Below are positions 37,701-64,000 of a DNA stretch of 64,000 nt, one piece after another. The stretch is from Chloropicon primus (Eukaryota > Chlorophyta > Chloropicophyceae > Chloropicales > Chloropicaceae): assembly GCA_023205875.1 (NCBI GenBank), contig CP060761.1:744001-808000 (forward strand), read 5' to 3'. The translations under genes and the position numbers were made by a program. The notes under the pieces are model-generated. The model saw only the letters and a list, made by a program, of their open reading frames with translations, ran no database searches and was not told where the DNA came from. The stretch's first letter is position 1; each line of letters begins with the position of its first letter.

Positions 37701-40700
37701 CTACCAATAAGGAGCGTTGGTGGGATACAATCCAGCAACGCACGCCCTTCCAAGTAGAGCTCATGCTCCTACGGTCCTTGTGACTCGTGTTCAACAAAGA
37801 ACCGTTTGATGGAGTCAACAAGGCATGTGCATTTGTTCCTTGGAAGGCAAAGCCACTTGCTCCATACACACTCTGGACACCTGACTCCGAATCGGAACAC
37901 TCAGCAGAGGAATAGCGTGGCAGTTGCACTGATTTGCCTCCCTTTTGTGCTTGAGCCTCCAAAACATTGACCACAAGAGGATTCACGTCCCGCAGATGCA
38001 GGAGTGGGCTCTGTGTGCCCATCACAAGGGGACCAAACAATTGTAGAATCCCAGACAGACCAGCAGCGGCCTCGGAGTGACCAACACAAGACTTCACAGC
38101 AGAAAGGGCAAGTGGAGTTTGTGACTTGGTGCCTCCAAGCAACACTGCGCTCAGGGCACCCACTTCAACTGGGTCGCCCAAAGACGTGCCTGTTCCATGC
38201 ATTTGCAAGCCAAATACATCTTCGGGAGATAAGTGTGCACTCTGCAGGGCTCTTTGCAGAACCATCTGCTGCGATGGACCGTTTGGAGCTGTCAAGGAAC
38301 TGGATCTGCCATCTTGATTCACAGCACTGCCCATCATGGACACGCAATGTGCATCTGCCATGGCCTCAGAAGTTCCATCGACAATAACACTCTGGCAAGC
38401 TTCTGCACGGACATAGCCATCTGCACTTTGATCCAATGTCTTACACCTACCATCAGCAGAAAGCATACTCGCAATGCTTACGACGACAAGAGATGTGCTG
38501 GCAAGCATCAAATTCACACCACATGCCATACTGATTGGAGCTGACATGGTCATCGCTGATTGCCAGGCCATACATAAGCCTACAAGAGATGATGAGCATG
38601 CTGTATCTATGCTCACACACGGACCTTGCAGTCCATACTTGTAAGACAAACGACCGGCTGCTACACTGAAAGCACTACCTGTTGCCATCAATGGACTGAG
38701 CGGCATGTTGTGGTCCTTCATCAGACCATTGTATTCCATGTGCTCAATACCAACATAGACACCCATCTTCTCTCGACGACGCTGGATGTTGCTTGAGTCC
38801 TGAGCATCATTCAGTACGCAACTTTGCATAGACTCCCAACTCACTTGCAGAAGCAATCTCTGCTGAGGATCACACAGCGAAGCTTCGGTCACTGACATTC
38901 CAAAACAAGCAGTGTCGAACGTGGAAACGTCCTTCAAAAGACCTGCAAATCGTGCTGTTAGCTGACCACTTGGCATCATTGCTTCACTTCGCTCAAGATC
39001 CCAACGTCCAAATGGAACAGACGTTATGGCATCACCTATACCGGCACCAGGCTTCATCGTCGTTGCAACAGGAAGGAGTGCACTGAAACTATTTAGAGCG
39101 ACACACCTTGTGACTCCCATCTCTGCACTTGGAAGAACCTCGTGTAGTTCCTGCACACTCTTGCCTTCTTGGAGGCCCAACTCACCACAAATGAAAGTGG
39201 TCAAAGCATTGATGCTGGGATAGTCCAGGATCACAGTGCTTGGCAGTTGGACTCCAACAGAAGACGAAATAGTGTTGCGCAACTCCACAACACCAAGGGA
39301 ATCAAGACCAGCCTCCATCAATGTGCAGTTGGGCTCGATATCTCTTCCTATGATGCTGTTGATCTGTGTTTGTATATTGCGTTGGACTTCTTCTTTCCCC
39401 GTTGTCGCGTTGTTATGTAATCGTTGTGGCTGCTTCTGGCTCTTAAGGGATTTTTCAATGCCAACAAGACGTTGAAAACTTTCATTGATTTTCGATATTG
39501 TTTCGATGTAAGCCCTTGTTGATGCAGATACTGTGGATTGGATGTTTGCTGACTTCATTCTTTGCTCGAGATATGCCAGACAAGAGACAGGGGATATATA
39601 CTCTATAGTACTGGAGTTCCTTCCTTCAAATTTTGTCATCATGCCAATTCCCGCTATTGCACCCCACTGAATAGCATGTACACAACTTCCCATGCTGAAT
39701 GATCTTGATGAAAGCAAGTCCACAACGGCATTCGCAGCAGCATAATTGACATTGCCGCTGTTCCCAAAAACAGAAGATAACGATGAGAAAGTGACTAATG
39801 CCACGCCATCAAGAACTTCGGACACAAAATTCAAAAACTGCACTTTCGGGGCCATACAGGTCAACAACGACGATATATCTTGCAGTTTCAAACTCGCACT
39901 CAAAAGAACACCAGCAGCATGGACCACCATGCCCAGCGGATAGAGGTCATCGCATCTCTCCATCATCCACCAAGATGCTTCTTCCCGCACCGAGACATCA
40001 CATCTTGCCATGGACACGCTCATATCTCCAGCACGGAGTTCTTCTGGGCATGTCCTTGACTTTCCTGTGCGTCCAAGCAATCCTAGGGAAGAACCTAAGG
40101 ACGATCTCACACACCAGCCACCAACCATTTGACCAATGCCGCTCAAGCCACCAGTCACGACATGGCGCCTTCCCTTCCCAAGATGGTGGGAACTATTCAT
40201 GACAGCGTGTGTCTGCGTAGTATCTCTCTGCAAGGTCAATTGAGGCAGGTACAAACTGCCGTTGTCCATGCTGCAGCCAAACACATCCACGGTTACATCC
40301 ATGGCATAGCTCTTTGAGCTGAACTGCAAACCACGGGCGGAAGCGCTTGGGTGTAAAGGACTCGTGTCAACGCCACCACACTGGACGCTGGTGCACTCAA
40401 GAGCTATGCTGCGCAACATGGCCCAAGACATGTATCCACTGGCTCCGTGATCCTTGTGAAGTCCCGCGGGACTTGCAGATGTGTCCAAGGAACCGGAACT
40501 GTGCATCCAAAGTGCGTCCGTGCCCTTCTCAACGAGATCCTGCATACCTGCAAGGATATGATGCGGGCAGATTGCACTCTCTTCCACATGAAGCTGTGTT
40601 GCAGGTTCTGAAGCCGTCAAAACATCCGAGGATACAACAGGTGTTTGAGCATACCAACAGATGTTGTACAATTTGCAGGCATCCAAGATGTCGCGAGAAG

Positions 40701-43700
40701 ACGAGACTCCACCGACCGTAGGGATGGAAATATCTTCTTTGCTGCTGATCACACGGAAGCTCAACTTGTCCACAAGGCATGGGGATGCGTCAATCTGAGA
40801 GGACTGAGTTACTCTTCCTACTTCAGTTGCACTACCCACCGCATGCAGACTCACTCCAAGGCTTGAAGTGCTCAGAATGCACGCCTCAACAGATGCTGGA
40901 ATGCGAGCTTGCAATTCAAAGCCATCACTGGAGGATGAGGTCACACTGTCCATCAAGTGCAAAGATGAGTCTATTTGAGCATGTGGTGTGGATAAGTATG
41001 GTTTTGCAATGTTTGCATATGATTCGAAGTAGGGTCCGCAGTTGAAAGCGATATCTGCACCGTATCTTGGATTTTCTGCATGAATCAATTGTGTGGGGGG
41101 GGTTGAAACGTGCCCATCCAGCAATGATAAATTGTGCACATGTTCATTGGATAGGTGTAGGATAACTTTTCCCGTGGCGTTTATGCTGATTGTGCATCGC
41201 GTTGCATATTTCATAATGCTCTTGCTGTTACATTCACCAACAGCAAAAAGTTCCATGAAATTGCAATCAGTCACTAGTGCAGTAGTAGAATACTCGAGAA
41301 ACGCATCCAATACTTCATGAACGATGGTAATAGCAGTGCTACAGGGCAGAAACTTTCTTCCGTGAAGCTCAGAAACCACTTCAGATACTTTGCTGACTTT
41401 CAGGTTTTCTCCTTCAACCAAAAGGATTCCTTCTGATGGATATCGAAAGCTCTGGAATACTGCACAAGTAAATTCTCCTCTGTTCAATGATTCTTTGGAT
41501 TCCTGCCAAATAGAATACTTCTTTTCGATACTCGAATGAAGCTGATCTTGGGCTTCAGAACACACAATGTGGGCATTTGTTCCTTGGAAAGCAAATGAAT
41601 TGATGCCAACACTCCTGGTGCGGTTGTCATTTTGGGGACATGAATATGTCTCCCTAGGCATAAGCATAAACTCGCTGGTGTCACTTGCAATCGAATCAAG
41701 CATATACGAAATATGGCGGTTCAATGTCCTCAAATGTGAAATTGGTAGGGAATGCTTCTTGAAAATGCTTTTTTGTGCAAGGTAGAACCCTGCAAGGCCT
41801 GCTGCAGCTTCAGCATGTCCTATGTTGGATTTGTCCGCTGAAATAATTTTGGGCTGAATCGCACTTTCTTGAGATTGCCGCGAAAAGTAGTCATGCAGAG
41901 ATGTGATTTCAATGGGATCTCCTAGTGCTGTTCCAGTGCCATGAAGGAAGATACTCATCAGATCGTTCGCGTCAATGTCTGCAAAGATGTGGGCTTCGGC
42001 AATGACAGCCTTTTGGGATGGACCGTTAGGCGCAGTAAGTGAGCTTGCCCTTCCATCCTGATTCACAGATGACCCTGAGAATAAAACAGCATTATCAACA
42101 ATTTCTTCTGATTGGACTATTCTCAAGCAAGTGCATGCCTCTGCCCTGACATATCCATCCGCAGTATTATCGAGAGCTTTACAACGCCCTTCTTCTGAGA
42201 GCAGGCTCGCAGCATCAAAAATCCCTGTGACCCATTTTGAAATCATAACATTCACTCCACTGCAGAGGGCAGAGGACATAGTTCCATGGAGGAAGTTTGT
42301 ATACGCCATGTGTACTCCGACCAAGCTTGATGAGCATGCCGTGTCAATACTAAGAGCTGGCCCATTCAAACCGAATTGGTAAGATAATCTACCTGCTGCT
42401 ACACTGAGCCCCGTACCAGTTGCAATGTACGGAGTCAACGGAAGCTTGAAATGCTGAATCAAAGCACTGTGATCGTGTGTTGCAATGCCAACAAATGATC
42501 CGCAAGACTTCCTAGAATCATCCACAAGACAGCTTGCAGAGAGCTTCAGAAGCAAGCGCTGTTGTGGGTCTGTAGCCATTGCTTCGCTCTTCGTGAAAGA
42601 GAATGCAGAGTAGTCGAACATGTGAACATCGGTCATGAAACCCCCAAAATTGTAGTCCAGTTTTGAACCATGGCCCTCGTTCGCATCCCATCTGTCTACA
42701 GGAACAAGACTAATTGCATCACAAGCAGTGCCTTTCCTAGCCTCACGAGCATAGGGGAGTTGAGATGCAATATCCACAATGTAGTGAAGGTATTCCTTTC
42801 TTGTCGCTCCTCTTGTGATTTCTTTGGCTTGAACTTGCACAGTAGTGTTCGGAGCCATGTAGCTGACAATAGCTGAGATGGATGGGTAGTCAAACACAAG
42901 AGTTCCAGGCAAGGCCACGCCAAGAACATTCTCTAAAGAATTTCTCAACTCCACGGCACCTAATGAATCGATGCCAGCAGCAACGAGCGGACTATCAATG
43001 GGCACCTGACTTCCAAGAATGCTGTACACGACATTTTGCACATCCTCCTGCATCTTTCGAATAGTCTGAGATGATACCATTTCTTCTTGAGGCTGCCTTG
43101 ATTTTCTTTCACCTTCAATGATCGCTTCAAAGCTCTCCTCTTCCTTTGCTGCTCGGCAGAGTTGTGGTTGAAAGTTCACAGCTTTTGAGAACTTTTTCCA
43201 CGTAATTGGTGCAACAGCGAAGACTGGGGAGATGGGAATGATGCATCTTTGTAAGAGCAGCTCGAATGAAAAGAGACCATCCATGGGATGCACTGGCGCC
43301 ATCCCCAAACGAAGCAGTCTCTCCTTCATGCCCATGCTTCTAGCCATACCGATGTTTCCCCAGGCTCCCCATTGAATGGAATAAGAGGATTTACCAAAAC
43401 TATGCGAGGATGTCATGTAACTATCCAAGTAAGCATTTGCAGCGCTATACGCAATTTGACCGGCGGAACCAAGAAGCGCGGCGATAGAAGAAAACCCTAT
43501 ATCTGTGTGTACCGCTAATGACCAGGACGTATTTGAAGCATTCTGCACACCCCTACATTTGGGAGAGAATACACTCATCACTTGATCGTACCTCTGCTGC
43601 AGTACTGTAGCATCGCGAAGGATCCCCGCACCGTGAAGCACAATCAACTCGTTTGTCTCGGTCTGCAAGAGAGGGGAGCTACAAAGGTTATCTTGGCAAG

Positions 43701-46700
43701 CAATGTTAGCTTTCATGAACAAGACTTCAGACTCCGAGTGAGACATTTCTGCTGCAGCTCTTGCAGACCTGGTATGACCAGACTGGCTGCCAAGAAGCAA
43801 TTTCTGCATTCCCTGAGCAATGCACCACCGCGCAAACAGGACACCGAGTGCTCCCTGACCGCCATAGATCAGACCATGAAGGTTTCTCAAATCATCTAAT
43901 GTGCGGTCGGCACAAATGACTGCCTTTCCAACAAATTTGCTATGAAGCAAAGTCTTGAACGCAGACGACACCTCCTTCAATTTATAAGAAGTATGGGATG
44001 AAGACTTGACTTTGCCTTCCGTCAGGAGAACCGCAAGCTGTTGCAAGCAGATCGAAACGAGTGGAAGTGAGTGGTAATGCATATTGTCGGCACGGGCAGC
44101 GCCAACGGATACCAAGTTCATACTGATGTCTTGCCGGTCCACTGGAGCACAGAAAGGGTGCCAGATATTTGTTTTGCTAAGTTCGACAAACATTCCTCCC
44201 CTTTCGAGAAGGGAAAGGCTCCCAGCCACCATTCCAGGGTTTGTGGCAAAGTTAATCACGCTCTGGATGCACCTTGATTGTTGCGATGCAATCTCGCTCA
44301 CAAACTTGGTTGACCTTGAGTCCATGACGCTCTGAATGGAAAGAGATCTTACGAATGTCCTTTTCAGTGCTGTTGAGCATGTTCCATAGACTCTGACGTC
44401 TGCCAACTTGCTCAGCTCGATAGCCGCAAGCCCAATGCCCCCACTAGCTCCATGAACAAGAATGGATTCTATCTTATCAAATCTTGAGAGCATGGCTTCC
44501 CAAGCTACTGCATTGGCTACGAATGCTGTGGGCAACATTGCAGCATGATCAAAGTTGCATGCAGGAGGGACGGGCGCAAGCAGAATACTTGGCGTGACAG
44601 CATTTGAACCGAGACCTCCAGAGCCAACACCCCCTGGGGTGAACCCAAAGACGGAGGAACCCAGGCAGAATGGATGGCCGCCATGCTGATTCACGTTGAC
44701 CACGGTTCCAGCTGCATCACCCCCGCACAAACCAGGGTCGTATCCTGGAGGGCCAGGATATAAACCAAGCACATTCAACAAGTCTCTGAAATTCAACCCA
44801 ATGCTTCGAACGCAAATTTCTACCGCGTTTTCATGCAATGCAACTGGTTGTTGCCTCTTTATCTTCAACGAGCTCACCAAACCTCTTGGAGCACTGTGAA
44901 CATGGTATGGAGGTGGGGTCCACTCGAATTTTCTCGAAAACATAAAGGGTGAGACTGCTGTTGACTGAAAGTTGTATTGCTCTCCGCCTGCCACGTCAGT
45001 TTCGGTAGGACACTTGCCGATCAAGTCCATTCCCCCGGAAACGTCTGATGAGCACTCGTAAATGTCTGGCATCCGGATACAATGGACTGACAGATTACCT
45101 TCCAAGCAAGAAGTCCTCATCATACTGCTCAAAGACTGGGCAGTGCAAAGTCTTTCCATGCTCACCGGGGCGAAATTTGGTGGCACAGAAGGCACAGAAA
45201 TATCAAAGCAAAATTGCTGAGACCTGACCTGCAGAGCTTGCAACATCAGAAGACACGATCCTCGGGTTTCCAAGCCTTGCTTTCCCTGGAATTTTTGCAG
45301 TACCTTTGATGGCTCCGAGTTGCCAACTTGAGAAGCTTCTGTTCGGTACTGTATGCAATACGTAACGTCTTCATCCTTGGCTTTTGAGCGAACAACCTTC
45401 CCCTCCATCTCAGAGGACTTTTCCTGCTTCACTGCTTTCAGATGAAGGTCATGACTAAATCCAACAAAATCACTTCCACGGGAATCGCATAGGTAGTGAT
45501 TAGTTGTAGAAGTCGATTCTCTTGAATTCTGAAACAAGGTCAAAAAGTCATATTGCGAGGCTCTGCTGCAGTCTGATCCCAGCCGCAAGTGTTCAAGAGC
45601 TACTGGAATCTTCAGACCAGACGAGTCCAAGGTCGAAATTGTCCGCAAAGCAGCTGTGTGCAACCACGCATCCAAATAATTTGCGTGAAGATTCACAGAG
45701 TCATTGTCTCCGCCCCCACACTCTTCAGCTTTACTCACGCATGCATGATAGTGGCTCGTTTCCGGAGGAGCGGGCAGAGATAGAGTAGGAGCTTCCACAA
45801 TCTTCTCAACTTCGAGAGAAGACTCACTCTTTCTCATTTTTCCGTCTGAGTGCCTGGTCTCGATTGCGCTGTCATTGTAAGATGATGCTACTGACCAAGT
45901 CCCAGTGCTTGCATTCACTTGAAACGAATACAGATGCTTGCCTTCATTGCCGGGACTACGACTCGCTTTGACAATCAAAGCAGACAAGATTGATGTTTCC
46001 ACGATGGAGTAACCTGATGCCTCCGATAGACAGGACAAACGGAGTGCGCCAGCAGCAGCTTCAAGAAAGGCTGCAGCTGGAATCACTACCCTCGAGAGAA
46101 CTATATGGTCGTAGAGATATGCGTTTCTGGCACAGTCGCCAAAGCCTAATTCAAATCGCAAGTCAGCCACGTCATGAGCGCGGACAGATTCCAAGAACGC
46201 ATGCAATTCTGGCGACACGTTCAAGACAAGCGCAGACTTGTCTATCGCTTTGCGTGACACTCCTTTCGCAAACAAAACACAAGATATCACAGCATGACTG
46301 TTCACACCTGTCATTCCAAACGAGCTTGTCCCAGCAATCTCGCTGTGGGCCAAAGATGTTGCAGAAAGAGGTGCCTTCGCAAGCGAGGTCCAGCCCTTCA
46401 AGGCCGAGGTGACATAAGGATTCATGTTGCGGAATCTAAAAGGAGCGCCGATGGACTTTATCAAAGCGAAGGAAGCCAAGAGCAAGCCAGCCAGACCTGC
46501 TGTGCTTTCAGTATGCCCTATGGAGGCCTTGCTCGATCCCAAGGCCAAGACGTGAGCATCAGGTGATTCGCCGCTACCAAACTTTGCGCTTTGCAGCATT
46601 CCACCAATAGCACCAACCTCGATGGGATCACCAAGACTGGTCCCCGTGCCATGCAGAGAGACGTAGTCGACATGCTGGGGGCTCTTCTTTCCTCGTTGAA

Positions 46701-49700
46701 GTGCACGCAATATCAACGATTGTTGCGATGGACCATGTGGCGCTGTGAAACTGCTCGATCGTCCGTCTTGATTGACTGCAGAGCCGAGAACAGCAACACC
46801 TGCCCCCGTATCACCAGAAGGTGCACCCATGTGGATGACTGCGAAGCCCTCCCCTCTACCATAACCATCAGCGTCGGCATCAAAGGTTTTGCAACGCCCT
46901 GAAGGGGAGAGTGCCCCAAGCTGGCAGAGCTGGACAACGGTGTCTGCCAAGAGTATCGCGTTCACTCCTGCAACAAGAGCGGATGGGCAAGATTCTCCTT
47001 GGATGTCATGTAACCCCAGGTGCATCGCAACGAGGGAAGAGGAGCAAGCAGTGTCCGTAACGATGCAAGGACCATTCAGACCAAATTGGTAAGAAACTCT
47101 GCCTACCAAGCTGCTTGCGCCGTTTCCTAAAACAGAATAAGAGTTCAGAATGGACAAGGATTTGACTATGGTAGCGTATTCTTGCCAACAGCACCCCGCA
47201 TAGACACCCACATTCAATGAATCTAATGAAAGTAAAATGCTGGACACTTGCTCAAGAAGGACGCGCTGCTGTGGATCCATGTAGATGCTTTCTTGCTTCG
47301 ACATGAAATACTTTTGGCAATCAAAATCGTACACACTCTCTGCGCTTGAAATAAAATTTGGGACCCAGAACGAATGAAGCTCTGCCATTTGTAATGCATC
47401 CCACCTGCGGTATGGTACATTTGCTTGAGTATCGTCAGATTGCATAGCCAGCCTTTCTACAAATGGCTCCTCAACGTTGCCCGAGAAGAGTTCTCTCCAA
47501 TCAAGGATGTAAGCCAGGGAATCTTTCTTCATATCAAGAGGAGGTCCCATGGCCATGGCCCGTTCTAGAGTCGATTCCTTGTCTTTCAGAGACTTCGCAT
47601 CATTCACATCAACAACGCCTAATATGAACTCACTCAAGAGCTCTACAGTTGAATAGTCGAACATGACTGTCGCAGGAAGCTCGACACCAAACGATTCGTT
47701 CAGGTTATTGCGCAGCTCAACAGCCTCCAGGGAGTCGATTCCAAGCTCCATCAACGGTTGGTTTGCCGGCACATCTTCACCAAGCATTTCCGAGATGAGC
47801 TTGCTCACAGTATCATCGACATGCTCCTTGATATTACTGGACTGGGCTGGGGGGGCTGCCTGTACGGTCGGCGCGACAGCGGCGGCGTCTCGGGCCTGGC
47901 CACGAGGCTTTAAACTGACGTCGTACTGGGAGTCTATTCTCCAGGACACTATGCTCGACTCTGGGAAACGAATGGAGTCCTCGCCACCGGCAAGCATGTA
48001 CGTTCTCTTCCCGTCGCTATCGACTTCCTCCAAGTAGTACCTTCCCTTCGTGGTGCTTTGCGAGATTGGTTTGATGCCGCACGAGGCGTGAACTCTTGCA
48101 AAGTTCTGGGTCATCTCAACAAAGTCTGAAGGAGGGACAAAGGTTCTCGTGTTCAGCCTTTCCTGAAGACTCCCCGTATCAAGGCCTTGGCGAACGTGCA
48201 GCACGTACAGAGATGACGCGTATCCCGATCCATAGGAGTACACCATAACCCTCTTTCCTGCGCATTCTTGGCCCGTGACCTGCATGAAGAGGGACGCAAT
48301 GTTGCAATACGCGGAAGCGGTGTACGGGTTGCCAATCCGCTCGCTCACAAAGAGACTATCCCCAACCTTCTCAGAAAAGATGTCTTGAAGCTGACTCACT
48401 TTGAACTTCTCGGATAGGAGCAGGCTCTTGAGCGCCTTCTTGACAAGTCTCGTGTTTGGAGAGTGGAATATCATGTAATCCATGGCTTCCACAAGCTTTT
48501 CTACGCCCAGCTTGCTGCGAAGGGCATTGAAACAGGTTTTGAACCCTTCCAAATAGCACTGCACAGAGTAAGGACCGTCCAGGTGGGCGAAAGGTTGGAT
48601 GTCTGCGACGGGTTTGTGGAAATCGTACGTGTCCTTCATGCACGTCGCCCGGGCAGGCTCGAGCACAACTCGTGCGTCTGGAGTGATAAGCATGGCAACC
48701 GCAGCGGCAGCTGACGAGAAGTGAAAGCGCGTTGTGTAGCTCGCGATGTCAGATGCCACTACTATTGCGTACCTGCCATCCCATGCCTCACTTTGCATCC
48801 AGGCTATTGAATTGAAGAAGGCCGCCGTTCCACCGTAGCAGGCATTTGTGTTATCCACGCCTTCTACGCTTGTGTTGCCCTTCTCTTCAAACAGCCTCAT
48901 CAAAAATGATTTGATAGACTTGCTTCTATCGACACAGCTTTCTGTGCCCACTTCCACCCTACCAATGGCGTCGTACGGAATCCTGTGAGATTCCATGAGA
49001 CCGCGAACGGCGTTGAGTGCAAAGGAAACAGAGTCTTCATTGTCATTGCAGCACGACAGGGCTTTCTGGCCCAAGCCATTCGTATACTTCCCCTCGCAGT
49101 TGTCATACTTCTCCAACTCTTGCTGAGAAACTGCAAACTCGGGGATGTACACGTAAATCCCACTGATGCCCACATTCGATGCCCTCGCTGGAGTCGTCAC
49201 CGACATCCTCCCGGAGAGAGGAGTCGACTTTGCAATTGCCTTGGGCTTGGACGCGGTTGGCAGCACTGATCCGATGTAGTCCTGAAGGGACTTCATCGTC
49301 GTGTAGTCGAACATGACTGTCGCAGGAAGCTCGACACCAAACGATTCGTTCAGGTTATTGCGCAGCTCAACAGCCTCCAGGGAGTCGATTCCAAGCTCCA
49401 TCAACGGTTGGTTTGCCGGCACATCTTCACCAAGCATTTCCGAGATGAGCTTGCTCACAGTATCATCGACATGCTCCTTGATATTACTGGACTGGGCTGG
49501 GGGGGCTGCCTGTACGGTCGGCGCGACAGCGGCGGCGTCTCGGGCCTGGCCACGAGGCTTTAAACTGACGTCGTACTGGGAGTCTATTCTCCAGGACACT
49601 ATGCTCGACTCTGGGAAACGAATGGAGTCCTCGCCACCGGCAAGCATGTACGTTCTCTTCCCGTCGCTATCGACTTCCTCCAAGTAGTACCTTCCCTTCG

Positions 49701-52700
49701 TGGTGCTTTGCGAGATTGGTTTGATGCCGCACGAGGCGTGAACTCTTGCAAAGTTCTGGGTCATCTCAACAAAGTCTGAAGGAGGGACAAAGGTTCTCGT
49801 GTTCAGCCTTTCCTGAAGACTCCCCGTATCAAGGCCTTGGCGAACGTGCAGCACGTACAGAGATGACGCGTATCCCGATCCATAGGAGTACACCATAACC
49901 CTCTTTCCTGCGCATTCTTGGCCCGTGACCTGCATGAAGAGGGACGCAATGTTGCAATACGCGGAAGCGGTGTACGGGTTGCCAATCCGCTCGCTCACAA
50001 AGAGACTATCCCCAACCTTCTCAGAAAAGATGTCTTGAAGCTGACTCACTTTGAACTTCTCGGATAGGAGCAGGCTCTTGAGCGCCTTCTTGACAAGTCT
50101 CGTGTTTGGAGAGTGGAATATCATGTAATCCATGGCTTCCACAAGCTTTTCTACGCCCAGCTTGCTGCGAAGGGCATTGAAACAGGTTTTGAACCCTTCC
50201 AAATAGCACTGCACAGAGTAAGGACCGTCCAGGTGGGCGAAAGGTTGGATGTCTGCGACGGGTTTGTGGAAATCGTACGTGTCCTTCATGCACGTCGCCC
50301 GGGCAGGCTCGAGCACAACTCGTGCGTCTGGAGTGATAAGCATGGCAACCGCAGCGGCAGCTGACGAGAAGTGAAAGCGCGTTGTGTAGCTCGCGATGTC
50401 AGATGCCACTACTATTGCGTACCTGCCATCCCATGCCTCACTTTGCATCCAGGCTATTGAATTGAAGAAGGCCGCCGTTCCACCGTAGCAGGCATTTGTG
50501 TTATCCACGCCTTCTACGCTTGTGTTGCCCTTCTCTTCAAACAGCCTCATCAAAAATGATTTGATAGACTTGCTTCTATCGACACAGCTTTCTGTGCCCA
50601 CTTCCACCCTACCAATGGCGTCGTACGGAATCCTGTGAGATTCCATGAGACCGCGAACGGCGTTGAGTGCAAAGGAAACAGAGTCTTCATTGTCATTGCA
50701 GCACGACAGGGCTTTCTGGCCCAAGCCATTCGTATACTTCCCCTCGCAGTTGTCATACTTCTCCAACTCTTGCTGAGAAACTGCAAACTCGGGGATGTAC
50801 ACGTAAATCCCACTGATGCCCACATTCGATGGCCTTGAAGGCAGGCTCTCAGTCTGGGAGTGTGCCTGGCTCTGGGATTTTGGCTTTCCGTGGATGAATG
50901 TTTGAGCTTGAATCCAGGCTTCTTTTCTTAGCACCTCAAGTCCTACGCGATGCCTGAAAATACTTGCGTACGCAGAAGGCCTATTGAACGTTCCCAAAGT
51001 ATTCCTCACAATCTCCTTTGCCTTGTCCAAGAGATCAGTCGAGTCGCTGTACACATGATTCACGATGCCAGAGTGCTTGGCTTCCTCTGCTCTTGCTTCT
51101 GAATTTGAGTACAACAAATACGCCAAGTCTCTCCAACCTGTCACTGACCTGTAGGTGCCAGTCATTCCAAGGCCAGGGGAAAGGGACAGGTGCAGGAAAT
51201 TGACCTGGAAAGAAGTCGTTTCCCGACAAATTCTCGAGTCGAACCACAATGAAAGACTGACGCCAGCCCCAATCAGCTTGCCTTGAACGGCAGCAAAGAG
51301 TGGTACCTCTAATGTCTGAATGCACGAGAAGCTCGTATAGAATGTGTACAGCATCAAGGCAAGCTCCGGCACCTCCTTCTGCATGAACGCGTGGTGCGAT
51401 TCTTCTCCAGAGAGTCTCCCACCTGTCGAAAAGTGTTCTGCAGAGCTCCAGATAATCACAGCACCAACGCTCGAATCACCATCCAACGTCTGGACAATGC
51501 TTTGGAATCTGGACGCAAAGGCAAAAGTAAGATGACGAGTCTTCAGCTCAATGCAGGCAATCGACCCGTCCATTTTCAACTCAATAAGACTCTTGTCCTC
51601 TTTCTCTTTGATATCGTAGCTACCAAAAATCAAGTCTGACATTATCAAAGAGGCATCTTCCACAGATTTGACAGGCAAGCTGTCCTTGATGATTGAGAGC
51701 AGCTGCTTTGGAGTCCTCTTCAACCGCATGAGAAAAGCTTTCTTCTCACTCACCCAATCGCTGCTCACGGTGAAGTCCACGAGACCGAGATTCACTGCTT
51801 CGAGGCTCCCGATCTGTTCGCCCGTGAGCATCAGGCGCCTGCACACGTGCTCTGGAATCCTCTGCTTTGCCGCAAGGGACACCATGCCTGGCACCAGCCC
51901 CCTCTTGACTTCCGGGAAGGAGAAGGTCGCCGAATCCTGTGCCACCACAACATCGGCGTATCCCAAGGCGACAAGGGCATCTGATGTCATAGCGCCTTTG
52001 CACACGACGATGAGAACGCCCTTGAACTGCATCAATTTGCGGATGAGGGACGTCTGCGCGTGGATGAAAGAGTATTTCGTGTCCTGCGGTGGCTCAGAGA
52101 AAGAGGTGAAATCGCCCTCCTTCGACGAGTTTTCAAGAACAAGGAGCCTTTGCTCACCTGCACTCGTTGCCACGTCAAGGACCGCAGCGATATTCCTCAA
52201 CACTGAGATCCTCTCCCCAAACGCGTCCACGGGGCACGATACATCAACGGTGAAGATGCTCGCAGAGATGCTGTCCGACTCCGTCACCGCAAAGGTAGGG
52301 GCGAAGTCTTCGGGCGACTGCTGTGAGCTCAGGTCAACGTCCCACACAGCTTCCATCAGTGAAGATGGCGTCAAAGGTTTCCTCATCATCTCAGTGGTAG
52401 CACTCGCGGCAAGATCTGGAAGTTTCCTGGCCCTGCTGATGGCATTCCTCAACGAGTTGTCTTCCACCGAAGTGATCACATTGTTCACCATTCCGAGATC
52501 GCACAAGCCGGCTGCACTCACGGGTTCACTCGCAGACAGACAGTTGTACAGTGCAGTGGTCCCCATTCGGTGATCCAGGCACTTCAACGTGATTGGGCCG
52601 AGTGCATTGATGCTGCTCATCTGTGACACAGGAAGAGCAGCATCCGAATATGCACTGACCCAATCGCATGACGATGTGATGCCCAAACCCATTGCGCTCA

Positions 52701-55700
52701 AGTCGCCACTGCAGGTGCACGCCGTGAAGTGCGAGAGGCTTTGGAGGTATTCAAGCAATGCTATCATCTGCATCTGCGCACGCCTGATTGCAGAGGCATC
52801 ACCCAAGTTGACATCCTCGGCAGTGCTTGCGCTTGCATCCCGTGAGCCGGCAGTCAACTCTATCAAGAGAACGCGCACGCCGGTGGCGTCTCTCTCTCCG
52901 ATGCCTGCGCCTGCCAGAGCGAGCATGACTTTTTCAATGCTTTGTCCAATCTCCAGTGCACCGCAAAGATGCGTCTTGTCCTTGATGACCAAGGTGCAAA
53001 CACCATCTTTTACTTCAACGGTGCAATCAAGGCAGTCAACCTTGGCTGCAGAAGGCTCGGTCACCTTGTCGTCCGCGAACGCCAGGCAGTGATAGAGGCC
53101 CTCGCTCCAACAGGACGACTTGGTCAATCTCTTCGTGTGAGTGCTCACGTCCCGGTGCTTGGAGAGACTCGCCACAAAATCACCCTCCAGATCGTCCGTC
53201 CCCCTCACGGTGAAGTCCACGAGACCGAGATTCACTGCTTCGAGGCTCCCGATCTGTTCGCCCGTGAGCATCAGGCGCCTGCACACGTGCTCTGGAATCC
53301 TCTGCTTTGCCGCAAGGGACACCATGCCTGGCACCAGCCCCCTCTTGACTTCCGGGAAGGAGAAGGTCGCCGAATCCTGTGCCACCACAACATCGGCGTA
53401 TCCCAAGGCGACAAGGGCATCTGATGTCATAGCGCCTTTGCACACGACGATGAGAACGCCCTTGAACTGCATCAATTTGCGGATGAGGGACGTCTGCGCG
53501 TGGATGAAAGAGTATTTCGTGTCCTGCGGTGGCTCAGAGAAAGAGGTGAAATCGCCCTCCTTCGACGAGTTTTCAAGAACAAGGAGCCTTTGCTCACCTG
53601 CACTCGTTGCCACGTCAAGGACCGCAGCGATATTCCTCAACACTGAGATCCTCTCCCCAAACGCGTCCACGGGGCACGATACATCAACGGTGAAGATGCT
53701 CGCAGAGATGCTGTCCGACTCCGTCACCGCAAAGGTAGGGGCGAAGTCTTCGGGCGACTGCTGTGAGCTCAGGTCAACGTCCCACACAGCTTCCATCAGT
53801 GAAGATGGCGTCAAAGGTTTCCTCATCATCTCAGTGGTAGCACTCGCGGCAAGATCTGGAAGTTTCCTGGCCCTGCTGATGGCATTCCTCAACGAGTTGT
53901 CTTCCACCGAAGTGATCACATTGTTCACCATTCCGAGATCGCACAAGCCGGCTGCACTCACGGGTTCACTCGCAGACAGACAGTTGTACAGTGCAGTGGT
54001 CCCCATTCGGTGATCCAGGCACTTCAACGTGATTGGGCCGAGTGCATTGATGCTGCTCATCTGTGACACAGGAAGAGCAGCATCCGAATATGCACTGACC
54101 CAATCGCATGACGATGTGATGCCCAAACCCATTGCGCTCAAGTCGCCACTGCAGGTGCACGCCGTGAAGTGCGAGAGGCTTTGGAGGTATTCAAGCAATG
54201 CTATCATCTGCATCTGCGCACGCCTGATTGCAGAGGCATCACCCAAGTTGACATCCTCGGCAGTGCTTGCGCTTGCATCCCGTGAGCCGGCAGTCAACTC
54301 TATCAAGAGAACGCGCACGCCGGTGGCGTCTCTCTCTCCGATGCCTGCGCCTGCCAGAGCGAGCATGACTTTTTCAATGCTTTGTCCAATCTCCAGTGCA
54401 CCGCAAAGATGCGTCTTGTCCTTGATGACCAAGGTGCAAACACCATCTTTTACTTCAACGGTGCAATCAAGGCAGTCAACCTTGGCTGCAGAAGGCTCGG
54501 TCACCTTGTCGTCCGCGAACGCCAGGCAGTGATAGAGGCCCTCGCTCCAACAGGACGACTTGGTCAATCTCTTCGTGTGAGTGCTCACGTCCCGGTGCTT
54601 GGAGAGACTCGCCACAAAATCACCCTCCAGATCGTCCGTCCCCCTCACGGTGAAGTCCACGAGACCGAGATTCACTGCTTCGAGGCTCCCGATCTGTTCG
54701 CCCGTGAGCATCAGGCGCCTGCACACGTGCTCTGGAATCCTCTGCTTTGCCGCAAGGGACACCATGCCTGGCACCAGCCCCCTCTTGACTTCCGGGAAGG
54801 AGAAGGTCGCCGAATCCTGTGCCACCACAATGTCTGCCAAGCATGGAAATAGCATGCCCCCACCATAGGTGTTTCCATGGCATGTCACGATGATGGGATG
54901 CTCATAAGCAAGCAGTGCACTGTACAGGTTTCCAAAGAGTTCAAGTCCCTTCATGAAGTTTTCCATCTCTGACACTTTAGCACCAAAGCAAAAGTTTCTA
55001 CCATTTGCCTTCAGGTGGATAGGCTTCGAGGCCTTGGAGAAAATCTGATTCAATTCAGAAAGCATTTCGATGCCAAGGGCATTGTCGGAATCTGGATCAT
55101 TCAATACGACGGTGAGAACTTCGCCTTCGTAACAGATCACTTTGTCATGACCGTCTGCCCGTGGCGACCGCGTGAAGCCTACTTGCACACCCTCTAAAGC
55201 GGGTCCCGTGCCATCTGCTGACATGCCAGCAGCATTCAAGCTCACGCGGAGTGCATTGTTTTGATGAATCGCATTCAAGTTGCTGTGGATGCAGTCCACA
55301 GAGGAAAGTAGGGAGATTCTGCTCAACCTGTCCGCGAGGAAATCCGTTGCGTTGATCAACGTCCCAAAGGGAATGCCCACGAAATTGAAGATATCATCAC
55401 GCTCAGAGCGCCTTTGAAGCTCAAAAATCGCCTCGACACTCTGACCTGTACCAGAAACCTTCTCGCCCCCAAGAGTCTCGCCAGAAGAAAAGAAATTGCA
55501 GTGGCCGCGCAGTAATTCACGGGTTTCAGGCTCTGGACCACTCCCCTCCAAGGAGAAACTCCCCAACGAAGGGAATGAGCTTGATGAAAGGTATGCTGGA
55601 AGCATTGGCGTGCGTGAAAACGAACAATTTACGAGAAAATGCTTCACATTCGCATCCCTCTTCATGATCTGCAACTGCGAATCAGCAATCTCAAGGAGTA

Positions 55701-58700
55701 CAGATTCGTCCAAGGTTTTCCTCGAGTGGATTGTTGAGGTAAAGTGGCAAAGAGGCACATTCGAATCAACGCGCACAGTGTGTTTCACCGGATTCACTGA
55801 ATTGCCCTTGACTTCACTGTAAAGAACAAACGAAGAGGCGGATTGATGGACATATAGATGCTTTGTGCTGCCATCTACAATTCGTTTGGGTATGGAGCTA
55901 CTGCGCAACGCAGTCAATGAGCAATGACTGTTCACTCCACTCATTCCAAACGAGCTTGTCCCAGCAATCTCGCTGTGGGCCAAAGATGTTGCAGAAAGAG
56001 GTGCCTTCGCAAGCGAGGTCCAGCCCTTCAAGGCCGAGGTGACATAAGGATTCATGTTGCGGAATCTAAAAGGAGCGCCGATGGACTTTGTCAAAGCGAA
56101 GGAAGCCAAGAGCAAGCCAGCCAGACCTGCTGTGCTTTCAGTATGCCCTATGGAGGCCTTGCTCGATCCCAAGGCCAAGACGTGAGCATCAGGTGATTCG
56201 CCGCTACCAAACTTTGCGCTTTGCAGCATTCCACCAATAGCACCAACCTCGATGGGATCACCAAGACTGGTCCCCGTGCCATGCAGAGAGACGTAGTCGA
56301 CATGCTGGGGGCTCTTCTTTCCTCGTTGAAGTGCACGCAATATCAACGATTGTTGCGATGGACCATGTGGCGCTGTGAAACTGCTCGATCGTCCGTCTTG
56401 ATTGACTGCAGAGCCGAGAACAGCAACACCTGCCCCCGTATCACCAGAAGGTGCACCCATGTGGATGACTGCGAAGCCCTCCCCTCTACCATAACCATCA
56501 GCGTCGGCATCAAAGGTTTTGCAACGCCCTGAAGGGGAGAGTGCCCCAAGCTGGCAGAGCTGGACAACGGTGTCTGCCAAGAGTATCGCGTTCACTCCTG
56601 CAACAAGAGCGGATGGGCAAGATTCTCCTTGGATGTCATGTAACCCCAGGTGCATCGCAACGAGGGAAGAGGAGCAAGCAGTGTCCGTAACGATGCAAGG
56701 ACCATTCAGACCAAATTGGTAAGAAACTCTGCCTACCATGAAACTCCTGCCATTTCCGACAATCCCAAATACGGTGTGGCCATGCCCATGTGAGGACAAG
56801 ACTTCTTTGTACTCATCCCACATGCAGCCAAGATAAACGCCGGCCTGACTCATGACATCTGTTGTCAGCGGCGACAGCAAAAGAATCTTTGATGTCTCCT
56901 GAAGGAGGATGCGTTGCTGTGGATCAATATGGGTTGCCTCCTGTATAGACATTTTGAAGGACCTCGCATCAAAGCTCTTTATGTCCCTACAATAAGCAGC
57001 AAAGCGGCAGTAAGAAGTTCCAACAGTTCGAGCGGGGGAATAATCAGCTTCAATGTCCCATCTATCGTAGGGCGTCTTGGTATGAGGTGTATTCAAACGA
57101 AGAAAGGAGCTGGAGTGTGAGCCCTCATCAAGGGTTGGAATTTTGAACACCATATCCAAAATTTCTACCACACTCACGGGGAGCTCCTGAGGATCAGGCT
57201 GGGTAGAAGAAATCTGCGTCTTGTCACCACCTAGTGGCTTTTCGACAATGCTCCCTTGAAGAAAGCGTGCGATCTCTTGGATTGTGGGATAATCAAAAAC
57301 AAGTGTTGGTGGAAGCTCCAACCCAAACATTTGTGATAAGTTGCTTCTGAATTCCACAGCTCCCAGGGAGTCCATACCCGACTCAATCAAAGGAGAGTCT
57401 ACATCGGCTTCGACTCCCACTATATCTTCAAATGCGCCCTTGATTTGAGAAATCACTTTCTCACTCTTCGCTTCGCTCACAATCTCCTCGGGGACCGGCT
57501 CGGCGCCACCACTCAATGCCTTTGACGCATGAAGCGCCACCTGCGAGTAGATGGGGTGATATTCGTCCAGCGGCCTGTCAACGGACGGGTTGATCACCCC
57601 GTAGAATCCAGATTCAAAGTCCCCTCGCAACGGCGCGCCGATGCCAAAGGTGTTCATCGATTTCTGTAAAGCAAGGAGTCCATCCGATGGGTTCAGAAGT
57701 CCTAAACCTAGCCTATTGAACCTATGCTGCAAGCTTTGGTTCGATCCCATTCCCGACTGTCCCCAAGGTCCATAGTTTAAAGCAGACACCGAGCAACCCT
57801 TTTGTCTTTGCGCAAGAGCAAAGTGGTTGAGTGCAGCGTTTGCACCAGCGTAGCTGCTTTGGCCGGGAGCACCAAGCAAGGAAGCAGAGGAAGAGAAAAG
57901 GACGGCCTTCCCCTTCAAATTCTTTAAAGAATCGCAAACAACATCTCCCACGACAACTTTGGAAGAAAAAGTCGACCTGAGATCCTTTGCTCTCTGGTTC
58001 ATGAAGACAGAGTCTGCAAGTGCTCCACTCGCGTGGACGAAGGTCATGTTGGGAGAGTGGAAGTTCCCATTCCTGAGCAGGCAGTCCCTCTCCTCCAGCG
58101 ATGACATGTCACAGCGAACCACAACAGTAGTGAGACTCTCTTGAGACAGGACTTCCTCCATGTTGTACCTTGCGTTCCTCGACGCCAAGGAGATGTTCTT
58201 GCATCCCAGTTCCGACATCATGGCTTTCACAGTCCGACCCAGGGCCCCGCTTCCGCCCGTGATGAGTGCATGCTCCGCCTTGTCCATGCGATTCAATACG
58301 GTGAGACGTCCCACGGGTCTCTGGCATATTTTGAAGCTACTGCTATAGCCACCCTCCAACTGGATTTCTCTCCAGCAGTCCTCCCCTTTCTGACCAGTTA
58401 CGCCGAACACAAAACCACTCTGGCCAGACTCGTAAGCAGACACCTGCACATTGAGGGGCACAAACTCTGCATTTTCACAGTGCAAGGAACGAGATATGCT
58501 CCGCAGCATGTGAGAGTGCAAACTCGACATCTCACCAACCATGGGCAACCTGTTGTGAGACCTTGATACCGTGTGAACAGATGCCTTCAAGTTAAGCGCC
58601 TGGGAACTTTGAATGCAGTGCATAATCTGAAGAGCGTGGCGTGCGGAGGGCACTGTCGCGTCCAGATCGTCGAAAGCGATGTGAGGACTCGACCTGTTGC

Positions 58701-61700
58701 CAAACAAACCAGCACTTTCTCTGGGGTTTTCCGCCCTGAAAGTTGTAAAGTACAACATCGCCATGCTTTTCTGTGGCATTTGAGCTTTCCTTGGAGCTTC
58801 GTCGGATGCCAAGGCCTTCGGCATCTTCACTTGCAACCCCAGCGCCAAGGAGAGAACCTTGTGGGGATAAGACTGACTAACGGAGTGGTTGCTCTCACTG
58901 TCATGCTTATCGCCATCGAGCCACGCATGCAAATCGTGCAAACCAGGTCCATGCGTGACGGTGCTCCAATACATTGATAGAGCAACTGGGATCCTGGCAC
59001 GGCTCTCTTCAGTACTAGAGGATTCAGGTACGGTGGCCAGCTGCAGACAGCAGTCCATCAAATTCGGAGGCACGCAATATTCATTCTCTCCTCCCTCCCA
59101 CATTGTTCGACCTGATCTGCACGAGCCATTCTCGTCTTGACGACGGAGGCGGGTCTCATTGGCCTTCTCATTGGAGTCAATGGAACAAGCGAGGCTTGTG
59201 GATCCAGTGAAGGAGGTCGCGGAAGACCCGCTTTTGAAAACATCGACAGCACCATGCTGGTTGCACCTGACTCTCACAGTTCCAACAGACTCTGGATTCT
59301 TCATGGTGAAAGGAGACGCGATGATGCAATCTAAAAGAGAAGCCACGACGCTCTTTCTCTTCCCGTCGTTTGGAGCCATGAATGCAATAGCCTCGTACGC
59401 AATTTCAAAGAAAGCTGCTCCTGGGAAGAGCTTCCTTCCAAAGATCACGTGGTCCTGCAGGAAAACCGCTGGTTTGCTGCGGGAGTTCAATCCAAACCCA
59501 AATTCAACTTCTCTCAGCAAAGACACTCGGTCCACGAGTGCCCTTGGGGTGGATTCTATCGAGATCCACTGCTTGTGAGAGCAGCAAAGGTCTGGCACTC
59601 TGCTCCTCCTGGAGACGAACTGAAGTTTCTCCACCAAGACATTGGCATTGGTCCCCTGAAAGGCAAACGCACTTGCTGATCCAAGCATTCGGTCAGCGAC
59701 CGCCGAGGAAGCAAATTGCCTCCCGACGCAGAAGTTCGGCCTTCCATTGGAAGCGCACTTATCCATCGGGTGGTGAAGGTGGGGGTTCATCTCCCTCAGG
59801 TGAAGGACAGGGACAGTGTAGTGAGCAGTCCATGCGAGCAGCTGCTCCAGGCCCACCATTCCGGCCCCTGCCTCCGCGTGGCCGACAGCAGATTTGGCGG
59901 CGCCAAGAACAAGCTTTTCTGTCCTGCTTTCCATTGCCACGTCCAAGGCTGAGAATGCTGCGGACACTTCAATCGGGTCACCGAGAGCTGTTCCTGTCCC
60001 ATGCATCTGCAGCTTGGAAACATCGCAAGGGTGCATTCTCGATATCTCTAGCATGGAGAGGATGAGGCCAGCTTGAGCGGGCCCGCTGGGCGCCGTCAAT
60101 CCACTTGAGCGGCCATCCTGGTTGACAAAGGATCCACGTAAAATCGCTTCTCTGCCCCTCGATAGATCCTCGTACCTCAATGGAGCCAGGGCCACTGATC
60201 CACAAGCTTCGGAGCGGACGTATCCATCCGCGGAGCTATCCAAGGTCTTGCACCTGCCATCGAGAGTGAGCATCGACGCTTTCCAGCATATCATGCTCCA
60301 GCGCGGAGAGAGGATCAAGTTGACACCACAAGCCACACCGCATTCGACCTGGTTGATGGACATGCCCACTCTTGTCAGATGCAACGAGACCAAAGATGAG
60401 GAGCACGCTGTGTCGACAGACATTGAGAATCCACTGTAGCCAAACGTGTAAGAGAGGCGACCTGAAGCTGCGCTCAGGTGCCCTCCAGTTGCCATGTACG
60501 CTCCAGGCTGATTCGCTGGGTACTTTTCTGCGTAGTCATTCAGAGAGATTCCCACAACCACGCCAACTGATGCACCCAGTTTGGCCTCGCCCCTCAAAGA
60601 ATGGTTGAGGCAACTCACAGACTCCAGCAAATGCCTTTGCTGCGGGTCAATGAAGGCCGTCTCTTGAAAGGACATTTTGAAGACTTCGTTGTCAAAGTTC
60701 ATAACGCCAACAAGAAAGCCTCCAAAGTTTGGAAACATGGTATGCCTAGATCTGGCAGAGAAATCCCATCTCGACAGCGGAGTGCAAGATATCGCATCGT
60801 TCCACAAGCAGGTAAGACCTTCAGCAACTCTTGGGAGCTTCACAAAAGTCCCCACGATCGCGGTGGAGATTTCTTCCGCTCCCGGGGAGTCCAACCTCTT
60901 CTCGCTCACCGCTAGCGGCAACTCCGTTCCCTTTTCCTCTGACACCAGAGCTTCCACGTATCTCGCAATGTTATCCACTGTCGGGTAATCAAAGACGAGA
61001 GTTGTTGGCAACTCGATCCCGATGCTTTCCTGCAGCGAACTGCTAAACGCGACGGCTTGCATGGAGGACAAGCCGCTGTCAAACAGTGGGGAGTCGTCTT
61101 GAAGATTCTCAAGATCGAACGTTGCTAGCAACGACTTCACGGTGCTCTGGATCGCTTGACTTTGGCCACGTTCCCCTGCCCCCGAGGAAGCCAGCTTCTT
61201 CCGCGCACTGAGCACATCCAGAGCAGTCACCGGAAGCAAGCGCCTGTAGTAACCAAGGTCCTCGGGGGGCGACGAGACGACCCAAACCCAAATGTTCCTG
61301 TCAGAATGAGCTTCCAGCAAGGGCAAGATCTCCTCGAGATCCTTGTCGACTAGGGAATTCACAAATATCCCGACGCCGCGGGCGGGCGGAATTCTGTCCA
61401 GGACATTGACCAGGCATTCAACCGAGTTCAAGCTCTCGTGGGGGTACTGGATCAAGACAGGGTTGTCTGCATCCATCTGTTGCACATCCCCGAGATCACC
61501 CGTTTCTGCCACAAGAGTCAAGGCCGAGCGGATCATCTTGGCTTCCGCAAAGTGACTTGACAGCATTCGTTTCAACACCTTCCCCGTCGCATTCGTTGGG
61601 AGCCTCGGCATGAAGTGGATGCTCGAAGGCACTTTGAAGTCCGAGAGCTGGCCCTGGCAAAAGCGAGTGAGCTCCTCCTTGGTGACATCCGTCCCTGGAG

Positions 61701-63228: not shown

Positions 63229-63650
63229 TGCGATCCCGCACTCTCACGCGGCAATCTCACAACAACAACAATCCCAGCTCCTCCGCTCCTCCTCTCGCGT
63301 TCGCGGAAAAACAAAAACCCAACGACGAACGAAACGAAACGAAACGAAACGAAACCAAAAGGACGATCCTCTCTCACACTCGCTTCCTCACTCACTCACT
63401 CACTCGCACGCACGCTCTCTCGTTCGCTGCTCGCTCCTCCCAGCTCTCTCTCTCTCACACACACACCGACCCCTCTCGGCCCAAGGAAAAACGTCAACGC
63501 CGCGCCAGATCCTTCCGGTGCGAAGCACGCGCAAGTGTCTGCGGTCGGTCCTGTCACGCACGCACGCACACCTCGTCTTGGTTCGGTTCTGTCTCGCTCT
63601 TCGTGTCTCGTTCGCTCCGATCGGTTAGGTTTTGCCGCGGCGGCTGGGCG
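63229..63650 (-). promoter_or_regulatory. Upstream region / probable 5' UTR of the PKS gene, low complexity
   Basis: No coding signal beyond shadow frames. It holds (GAAAC)5 at 63331-63355, (CTCA)n at 63387-63406, and a CT run followed by CA repeats at 63443-63466. On the gene's strand these are purine-rich GA/GT and TTTCG tracts just upstream of the start codon, which sits in gcgggatcgcaATGCC. No TATA box, splice site or upstream ORF can be argued with confidence. Confidence 0.45.
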
Positions 63651-63654
63651 TTAC

Positions 63655-63995
63655 GATTTTTTCTCCCTTTATTATTAGGGGGGAACGAGGATCGGGGTGG
63701 CGGGAGAGTGAGGGGACTCATCCACCTTTGGGGATAATGGAGGGAGGGGACGTCGACCAGGATGGAGGGGAGAGGGAGGAGGGGAGAGAGGAGAGGGGTC
63801 CTTGATCCTTGGATTGAATGAAACCTTACCGATTTTCTCCCTTTTTATTAGGGGGGAACGAGGATCGGGGTGGCGGGAGAGTGAGGGGACCCATCCACCT
63901 TTGGGGATAATGGAGGGAGGGGACGTCGACCAGGATGGAGGGGAGAGGGAGGAGGGATCCTTGATCCTTATCCTTGGATTGGGAGTCTCCTGAAT
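63655..63995. repeat. Tandem repeat of about 174 bp, two copies
   Basis: Copy 1 spans about 63655-63828 and copy 2 about 63830-63995. Both run from cgatttt(tt)ctccc through gggggaacgaggatcggggt, gataatggagggaggggacg and ccttgatcc. Differences are small indels in the T, AT and GA runs. It is G/A-rich on the plus strand, with no ORF support. It may be an intergenic satellite or a duplicated promoter element. Confidence 0.8.
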
Positions 63996-64000
63996 CCGGT

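Follow-up and report, generated by a model that had tools for sequence, protein, structure and literature searches.

A putative in-line beta-branching module with eukaryotic-type HMG-CoA synthase domains in a giant polyketide synthase of Chloropicon primus

The DNA analysed here, a stretch of 64,000 nucleotides from the chlorophyte Chloropicon primus (assembly GCA_023205875.1, contig CP060761.1, positions 744,001 to 808,000; termed the window), encodes on its minus strand the first part of a giant polyketide synthase (PKS). Here, we focus on the second module of this PKS, in which 3-hydroxy-3-methylglutaryl (HMG)-CoA synthase domains (HMGSs) and a series of crotonase-like domains lie in line between two ketosynthases (KSs). 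Judged by sequence comparison, module 2 is probably a self-contained beta-branching module, made from a eukaryotic-type HMGS and crotonases, in a PKS that has no acyltransferase (AT) in the part seen. A beta-branching cassette had been proposed in a preliminary description of the same DNA, and it appears to be the best-supported reading of module 2, although two of its parts, six working crotonases and a degenerate dehydratase (DH), found no support.

The beta-branching role is suggested by the intact residues of the HMGS domains, a PksH-type Glu in a domain of the enoyl-CoA hydratase (ECH) kind, acyl carrier proteins (ACPs) in line, the position of the cassette at the place of a ketoreductase (KR), and a parallel published for Emiliania huxleyi. 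An HMG-synthase and a putatively dehydrating crotonase (E1, with Glu2818) occur together in a module without a KR.

Layout and proposed working of module 2

The minus-strand frame 35806..63243 is open throughout and specifies 9,145 amino acids (aa), the first part of the PKS; residue r occupies window bases 63243-3(r-1) down to 63243-3r+1. Its domain order according to Pfam is a loading ligase-ACP, module 1, KS2, a linker, six crotonase-like domains, HMGS-ACP-HMGS-ACP and KS3. As the preliminary description had stated, module 2 contains KS2 (by Pfam) and two ACPs (by their GIDS sites) and has no KR, there being no Pfam match to this domain in the interval between KS2 and KS3. Its components, in the order of the protein, are:

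55909..57216, minus strand, KS2 (residues 2010-2445; Pfam ketoacyl-synt 2055-2260 and ketoacyl-synt_C 2275-2390; active-site DTACSS)
55174..55908, minus strand, linker of about 245 aa, unassigned by family (no family match, no DH similarity)
54559..55122, minus strand, E1, a crotonase with PksH-like key residues (Pfam ECH_1, E 2.7e-23, 83 bits; alignments)
53764..54462, minus strand, E2, degenerate crotonase-like (ECH_1 17.1 bits, cut-off 27; 26.5 bits with our own crotonase model)
53074..53751, minus strand, E3, a crotonase (ECH_1 46.1 bits; alignments)
52324..53022, minus strand, E2', identical to E2 (within a 1,627-bp repeat, 100% identity)
51694..52311, minus strand, E3', a copy of E3, identical up to about residue 3826 (repeat comparison)
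50950..51564, minus strand, E4, a crotonase (ECH_1 E 2.8e-22, 79.7 bits; alignments; fold model)
49624..50835, minus strand, HMGS1 (Glu4218/Cys4252/His4377), eukaryotic-type HMG-CoA synthase by model score and tree
49273..49461, minus strand, ACP1 (PP-binding; GIDSLEAVEL, GIDS at 49392)
47974..49185, minus strand, HMGS2 (Glu4768/Cys4802/His4927), identical in protein to HMGS1 across the 422 aa compared
47623..47811, minus strand, ACP2 (PP-binding; GIDSLEAVEL, GIDS at 47742)

Chance similarity is no concern for the HMGS, KS, E1, E3 and E4 matches. HMGS and ECH matches are confined to module 2 among the modules of the window (Pfam, 14 KS stretches), and a single beta-branch would be expected in this part of the product.

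The working that we propose can be divided into successive steps, their order included in the proposal. KS2 would form a beta-ketoacyl-ACP, and its ketone would stay unreduced because module 2 has no KR. HMGS1 and HMGS2 would load acetyl on their Cys, probably from acetyl-CoA, and the acetyl carbanion would then attack the beta-ketone, forming an HMG-like acyl-ACP. E1 would dehydrate this intermediate, running a 3-substituted-glutaconyl hydratase reaction backwards, and E4, a candidate decarboxylase, or another crotonase domain would remove CO2, leaving KS3 to carry on the beta-methyl(ene) chain. Acetyl-CoA is the likely donor because of the mevalonate ancestry of the HMGS domains and because no KS lacking the active Cys (KS0, the decarboxylating type) was seen among the window's 14 KSs, which show 14 Pfam stretches and 14 DTACSS active sites; the absence of such a KS in the window fits a CoA donor, although a KS0 and a donor ACP could lie beyond the window.

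The linker was previously called a degenerate DH, a reading that we have dropped. Residues 2440-2700 gave no Pfam or NCBIfam match, and in single-sequence hhalign comparisons the linker matched the DH regions of modules 1 and 3 with a probability of 0.3, against 77.6 for the match between those two. A structure model of the linker from its single sequence was uninformative (predicted local distance difference test, pLDDT, 33.6). It is possible that the linker is a DH decayed past recognition.

HMG-synthase and crotonase domains

Both HMGS domains carry an intact Glu/Cys/His set, as the preliminary description had claimed; we take these three residues to have the catalytic roles in HMGS. Pfam HMG_CoA_synt_N matches two stretches (E 2e-128), and HMG_CoA_synt_C is also matched. 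HMGS1 scores 390.5 bits to the eukaryotic model TIGR01833, above its cut-off of 286.2, and 201 bits to the prokaryotic TIGR01835, below its cut-off of 360. Bit scores to individual enzymes are 306 for cytoplasmic HMGCS (2p8u, presumably the human enzyme), 69 for PksG and 62 for CurD. A 27-row tree (19 sampled bacterial HMG-CoA synthases of the PKS-cassette type, HCSs, four other prokaryotic and three eukaryotic sequences, and HMGS1) places HMGS1, on a long end branch (2.23), with the three eukaryotic HMGSs at a support of 100/100. Membership of the PksG/CurD clade was rejected: the tree joining HMGS1 with the 19 bacterial HCSs has a p-value of 0.000112 in the approximately unbiased test (p-AU). 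By score and tree, both HMGS domains are thus classed with the eukaryotic mevalonate type, and not with the PksG/CurD type.

The six crotonase-like domains, in the order E1, E2, E3, E2', E3' and E4, are four distinct domains with a tandem copy of two. The number given by the preliminary description is therefore right for crotonase-like domains, but they include a copied pair, E2 lies under the Pfam cut-off, and a hydratase-like site is kept by E1 only. The E1 features FCFGA, GGG and Glu2818 correspond in turn to PksH Ala67, oxyanion region and Glu137; the Glu137 mutant of PksH is described as having lost activity on HMG-SNAC (the N-acetylcysteamine thioester) and as strongly impaired on HMG-CoA (PMC7501309). 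E1 is probably a dehydratase. The catalytic Glu of E2 is missing in the alignment, and the C-terminal half of E3 repeats that of E1, with Glu3298 and without the GGG oxyanion stretch. E4 is without either hydratase Glu, at the two places that we assume for them from crotonase. Its stretches FSTGG and VNF..SPGLGMT resemble FCSGG and TNF..TPGMGAT of ECH2, the decarboxylating hydratase of bacterial cassettes, and E4 is possibly a decarboxylase. The fold model of E4, built on 38 aligned rows (pLDDT 77.5), has general crotonases as its best Protein Data Bank matches, and PksI and CurF are not named among the best 50 of its 901 structural matches.

Several features weigh against a working beta-branching cassette of this kind. 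The PTGG loop of other HMGSs is SSAA in those of module 2. ACP1 and ACP2 have Leu in place of Trp (GIDSLEAVEL) in GXDSX5W, given as the flag of bacterial beta-branching acceptor ACPs (PMC11425284). E1 has Lys2756 at the place of Asp68, the proton donor of PksH. At the place of the ECH2 catalytic His, which is His230 in PksI (PMC7501309), E4 has Gln4112 in a 38-row alignment (E4, 35 of the 57 listed ECH2s, E1 and E3), and a homologue of ECH2 with the same His-to-Gln change, Art21 (ECHQ), is reported not to decarboxylate, its Gln-to-His mutant likewise showing no decarboxylation (PMC11425284).

The wider affinities of E1 and E4 tell in the same direction, as both score best to general crotonases and not to ECH1 (the dehydrating hydratase of bacterial cassettes) or ECH2. 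With models built here from 23 general, 75 ECH1 and 62 ECH2 sequences, E1 reaches 110.9 bits to the general model, 62.3 to ECH1 and 44.0 to ECH2, and E4 reaches 93.5, 25.4 and 43.6 bits, respectively. These scores do not support membership of E1 in bacterial ECH1 or of E4 in bacterial ECH2, by a test that is blunt for diverged members: five ECH1s of the scanned genomes score 372-429 bits to the ECH1 model, which they or near copies helped to build, and the ECH of a Sandaracinus HCS cluster, from outside the ECH1 model, scored 159.5 bits to ECH1 and 150.7 to the general model. In four of the five bacterial genomes compared, general crotonases ranked first for E1 as well as for E4, ahead of the PksH- and PksI-like ones; in the fifth (three crotonases found, all PKS-type by score) the top match was the ECH2 gene. 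The tree positions of the two domains are also unstable. A first tree (74 rows, a quarter of the ECH1 and ECH2 sets sampled, E2 and E3 excluded) placed E4 with ECH2 (98/95) and E1 in a group shared by ECH1 and hydratases (99/88). A second (fewer rows, at one in eight, a quicker method, window rows entered singly) gave no starred placement for E1 or E4, and E1 joined with the ECH1 clade had a p-AU of 0.38. In favour of the proposed role, the nearest tree rows of E1 include a gamma-carboxygeranoyl-CoA hydratase (NF004227, 522 bits). This enzyme hydrates a 3-substituted glutaconyl-type CoA, a reaction that is the reverse of the step proposed for E1.

Two alternatives arise from these features. 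If the HMGSs and E1 act and E4 does not, the cassette would halt before decarboxylation and leave a carboxymethyl (or methylglutaconyl-type) branch. Gln4112 and the inactivity of Art21 are in keeping with this, and a carboxymethyl beta-branch is described for module 11 of bongkrekic acid (PMC12560621). However, a second alignment, of three rows, puts His4118 at that place of E4, and the decarboxylation could fall to another crotonase domain or to a separate enzyme; we regard a halt at this stage as unlikely. Alternatively, the block may be dead or vestigial, its HMGS and ECH domains structural, with module 2 handing on an unreduced beta-ketone. Catalytic features are indeed lost in E2, E2', E3 and E3', and E1, E4 and the HMGS PTGG loop have the odd residues listed above, but Glu, Cys and His are kept in both HMGS copies, and the frame of 9,145 aa is unbroken in a window that has frame breaks at other places. 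We consider a dead block quite improbable, somewhat more so than a halt before decarboxylation, and favour a beta-branching module in which some of the crotonase domains may have lost function. E2 and E3 might be inert fillers that allow trimer-forming crotonases to assemble within one chain, which is speculation on our part; PksH and PksI are described as trimers (PMC7501309).

Duplications, frame breaks and flanking domains

Two direct repeats lie within the cassette and were found by DNA self-comparison:

51764..54830, minus strand, tandem direct repeat of 1,440-bp period, 1,627 bp, 100% identical (copies 51764-53390 and 53204-54830)
47654..50835, minus strand, HMGS-ACP direct repeat of 1,532 bp with one mismatch, 99.9% (copies 47654-49185 and 49304-50835)

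E2-E3 and E2'-E3' sit inside the former, which stops at about residue 3826 within E3'. The cassette duplicates are closer than the other window repeats of at least 600 bp (99.1-99.7% identity). This closeness raises the question of whether assembly error accounts for the doubled ECH and HMGS-ACP units; the true module would then be E1-E2-E3-E4-HMGS-ACP or have fewer domains still, which would be compatible with a beta-branching module. Frame breaks within near-identical repeats elsewhere suggest an imperfect sequence and would favour such errors, whereas the linkers differ (that before HMGS1 from that between ACP1 and HMGS2) and module duplication is reported for algal PKSs (PMC4661987). We treat assembly errors in these units as a real possibility, if the less likely one.

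The fusion itself is another matter. The preliminary description had named a primary-metabolism HMG-CoA synthase joined to the PKS by misassembly as what would overturn its reading; the best matches are indeed of the primary-metabolism type, but a misjoining of unrelated genes was rejected as the source of the fusion. The HMGS fusion reads as recruitment, and not mis-joining, because it is in frame inside a single open frame (9,145 aa), has ACPs on either side of HMGS2 and has a published parallel.

Similar duplication is seen outside the cassette. KS-containing units, each about 3.8 kb long, recur within window positions 11105-39327 at 99.1-99.7% identity. Frames break at about 16.75, 24.5, 26.6, 29.3 and 35.8 kb, within near-identical repeats, and intact copies of such stretches occur elsewhere in the window; the breaks are either sequence errors or decayed modules. 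KS2 and KS3, which flank the cassette, have 819 bp in common (46291-47108 and 55920-56738) at 99.4% identity, a likeness that suggests gene conversion or recent duplication.

The domains before and after module 2 are:

61579..63138, minus strand, AMP-binding (acyl-CoA-ligase-like) loading domain, residues 36-555 (Pfam PF00501, E 2.2e-61, and PF13193)
60931..61143, minus strand, loading ACP, about residues 701-771 (ACP_SdgA_C, 16.7 bits, under the cut-off; one of the piece's two PP-binding stretches)
57259..60861, minus strand, module 1, KS1-DH-KR-ACP, about residues 795-1995 (Pfam ketoacyl-synt, PKS_DH_N 1259-1327, KR 1660-1828, PP-binding 1933-1995)
46450..47436, minus strand, KS3, which opens module 3 (Pfam)
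42859..46449, minus strand, remainder of module 3, with a weak DH, an enoylreductase, a KR and an ACP (Pfam PKS_DH_N 23.8 bits, under the cut-off; ADH_zinc_N, KR, PP-binding)

A partial piece of the loading ligase is also matched by NCBIfam PRK06187 (184 bits, under the cut-off of 476). AT (PF00698) is absent from the Pfam matches of the nine pieces scanned in the 64-kb window, and the part of the PKS inside it is of the trans-AT type in that its modules lack this domain. The leader 5' of the frame (window 63240-64000) contains short runs, one of them a 5-nt repeat (63328-63359), and resembles a eukaryotic nuclear gene leader; it holds a 118-nt stretch twice (63666-63783 and 63839-63956, 97% alike, spacing 173).

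Comparison with bacterial and eukaryotic systems

Bacterial beta-branching had been contrasted with module 2 in the preliminary description as the work of separate HCS and ECH proteins. This is borne out for HCS, which is separate in all 83 bacterial loci with a PksG-type HCS that were compared: the frames are of 419-610 aa from stop to stop (one of the 83 cut by the locus end) and none lies within a PKS. A PksG-type query gave 418 matches, of which the best 80 yielded 78 of these loci; the other five are from plasmids, where one more locus, not of the HCS kind, was left uncounted. The sample leans to close relatives of PksG. Compared with bacteria, the in-line HCS is unusual within this 83-locus sample. 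ECH2 lies inside a longer frame in some loci (for example 1,450, 2,128 and 2,207 aa in L001, L019 and L084). In a Paenibacillus HCS cluster, ECH1 and ECH2 matches fall in a single 537-aa frame. An ACP and a free-standing KS stand beside HCS in four of the five annotated plasmid loci.

Wider scans covered further bacterial, plasmid and viral sequence. In 99 further genomes of one phylum, HMG_CoA_synt_N gave eight matches in seven genomes, in frames of 350-514 aa, one of them under the cut-off. HMGS-type matches occur in 43 of 72,556 plasmid records, all at less than 60% identity. A single-protein word scan, which excludes little, found no viral-contig match to the module 2 HMGS and six genome-contig stretches, none related; the same kind of scan, with the same limit, found one stretch and no relative among viral contigs for window 39000-42000 of the frame.

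Horizontal transfer of a bacterial HCS/ECH1/ECH2 cassette, as the origin of this one, would explain the shared set of activities and would accord with the grouping of E4 with ECH2 (98/95) in the larger tree and with the union of E1 and the ECH1 clade, not rejected at a p-AU of 0.38. Against this stand the rejected grouping of HMGS with bacterial HCS, the absence of a KS0 among those seen in the window and the better scores of the ECH domains to general crotonases, and we hold a bacterial origin to be very unlikely. A beta-branching module assembled around a eukaryotic HMGS remains the reading that we prefer.

In-line cassettes are not new to eukaryotic algae. Two multimodular PKSs of E. huxleyi with in-line ECH and HCS, and a proposed beta-methyl addition, are described by O'Neill (2020; PMC7073580), whose Fig. 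4 legend gives KB867561 and KB868012 among its accessions, and a figure legend of the same source lists ECH and HCS for the Euglena gracilis megasynthases. Novelty as such is not supported for the cassette, which the preliminary description had called unusual in what looked like a eukaryotic alga, because the E. huxleyi modules were published in 2020 (PMC7073580). The main new point is instead that the HMGS is eukaryotic in type, as model score and tree assign it; for the E. huxleyi HCS we saw no type stated (PMC7073580). Our literature search turned up no PKS described as containing a mevalonate-type HMGS, although it did not bring up the original PKZILLA paper.

Methyl branches derived from acetate C2 are regular in dinoflagellate polyethers, and according to PMC6835853 molecular evidence for the presumed HMG-CoA synthase was still lacking in 2019. 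A PKS-embedded eukaryotic-type HMGS shows what to search for in long-read algal genomes: mevalonate-type HMGSs fused to ACPs, and not PksG homologues. Its presence in a PKS module argues for a beta-branching route separate in origin from the bacterial one, which may use acetyl-CoA directly. A broader scenario, which we offer tentatively and think doubtful as a whole, is that eukaryotes evolved polyketide beta-branching independently. A cytosolic mevalonate HMGS would have been fused to ACPs in a PKS, using acetyl-CoA as donor without a donor ACP or KS0; active (E1, E4) and dead (E2, E3) crotonases would form intramolecular pseudo-trimers that reconcile trimer-forming crotonases with a dimeric PKS; and gene conversion and tandem duplication would keep the units near-identical.

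Set beside known systems, module 2 resembles the bacterial cassettes (PksG/H/I of bacillaene, CurD of curacin and the 83 loci) in its proposed logic, an HMG-synthase with a dehydrating ECH1 and a decarboxylating ECH2 acting on a beta-ketoacyl-ACP. The bacterial systems are separate proteins with a PksG-type HCS, whereas module 2 is in line with a mevalonate-type HMGS. The giant trans-AT PKSs of chlorophytes, such as Chlamydomonas PKS1 as described in PMC4661987 and PMC7073580, are like the window PKS in being very large and without AT, in module duplication and in starting with an A-domain (ligase-like). The window PKS differs in carrying HMGS and ECH: HMG or ECH terms do not occur in the main text of PMC4661987 (term search), and the same kind of search found none in PMC7159223, PMC12190008, PMC6722697 or PMC12300183. 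The E. huxleyi modules also belong to a eukaryotic alga, with an HMG-CoA synthase and an enoyl hydratase built into PKS modules; by comparison with their published description, the C. primus PKS has one such module among the 14 KSs seen, with six ECHs, two HMGS-ACP units, a ligase-ACP at the N-terminus and, in the window, no AT. Finally, the eukaryotic HMG-CoA synthases of primary metabolism (HMGCS1, plant HMGS1) share with the module 2 HMGS the TIGR01833 family, 45-47% identity and the catalytic triad, while the module 2 domains are distinguished by their altered PTGG loop and by tandem fusion with ACPs inside a PKS.

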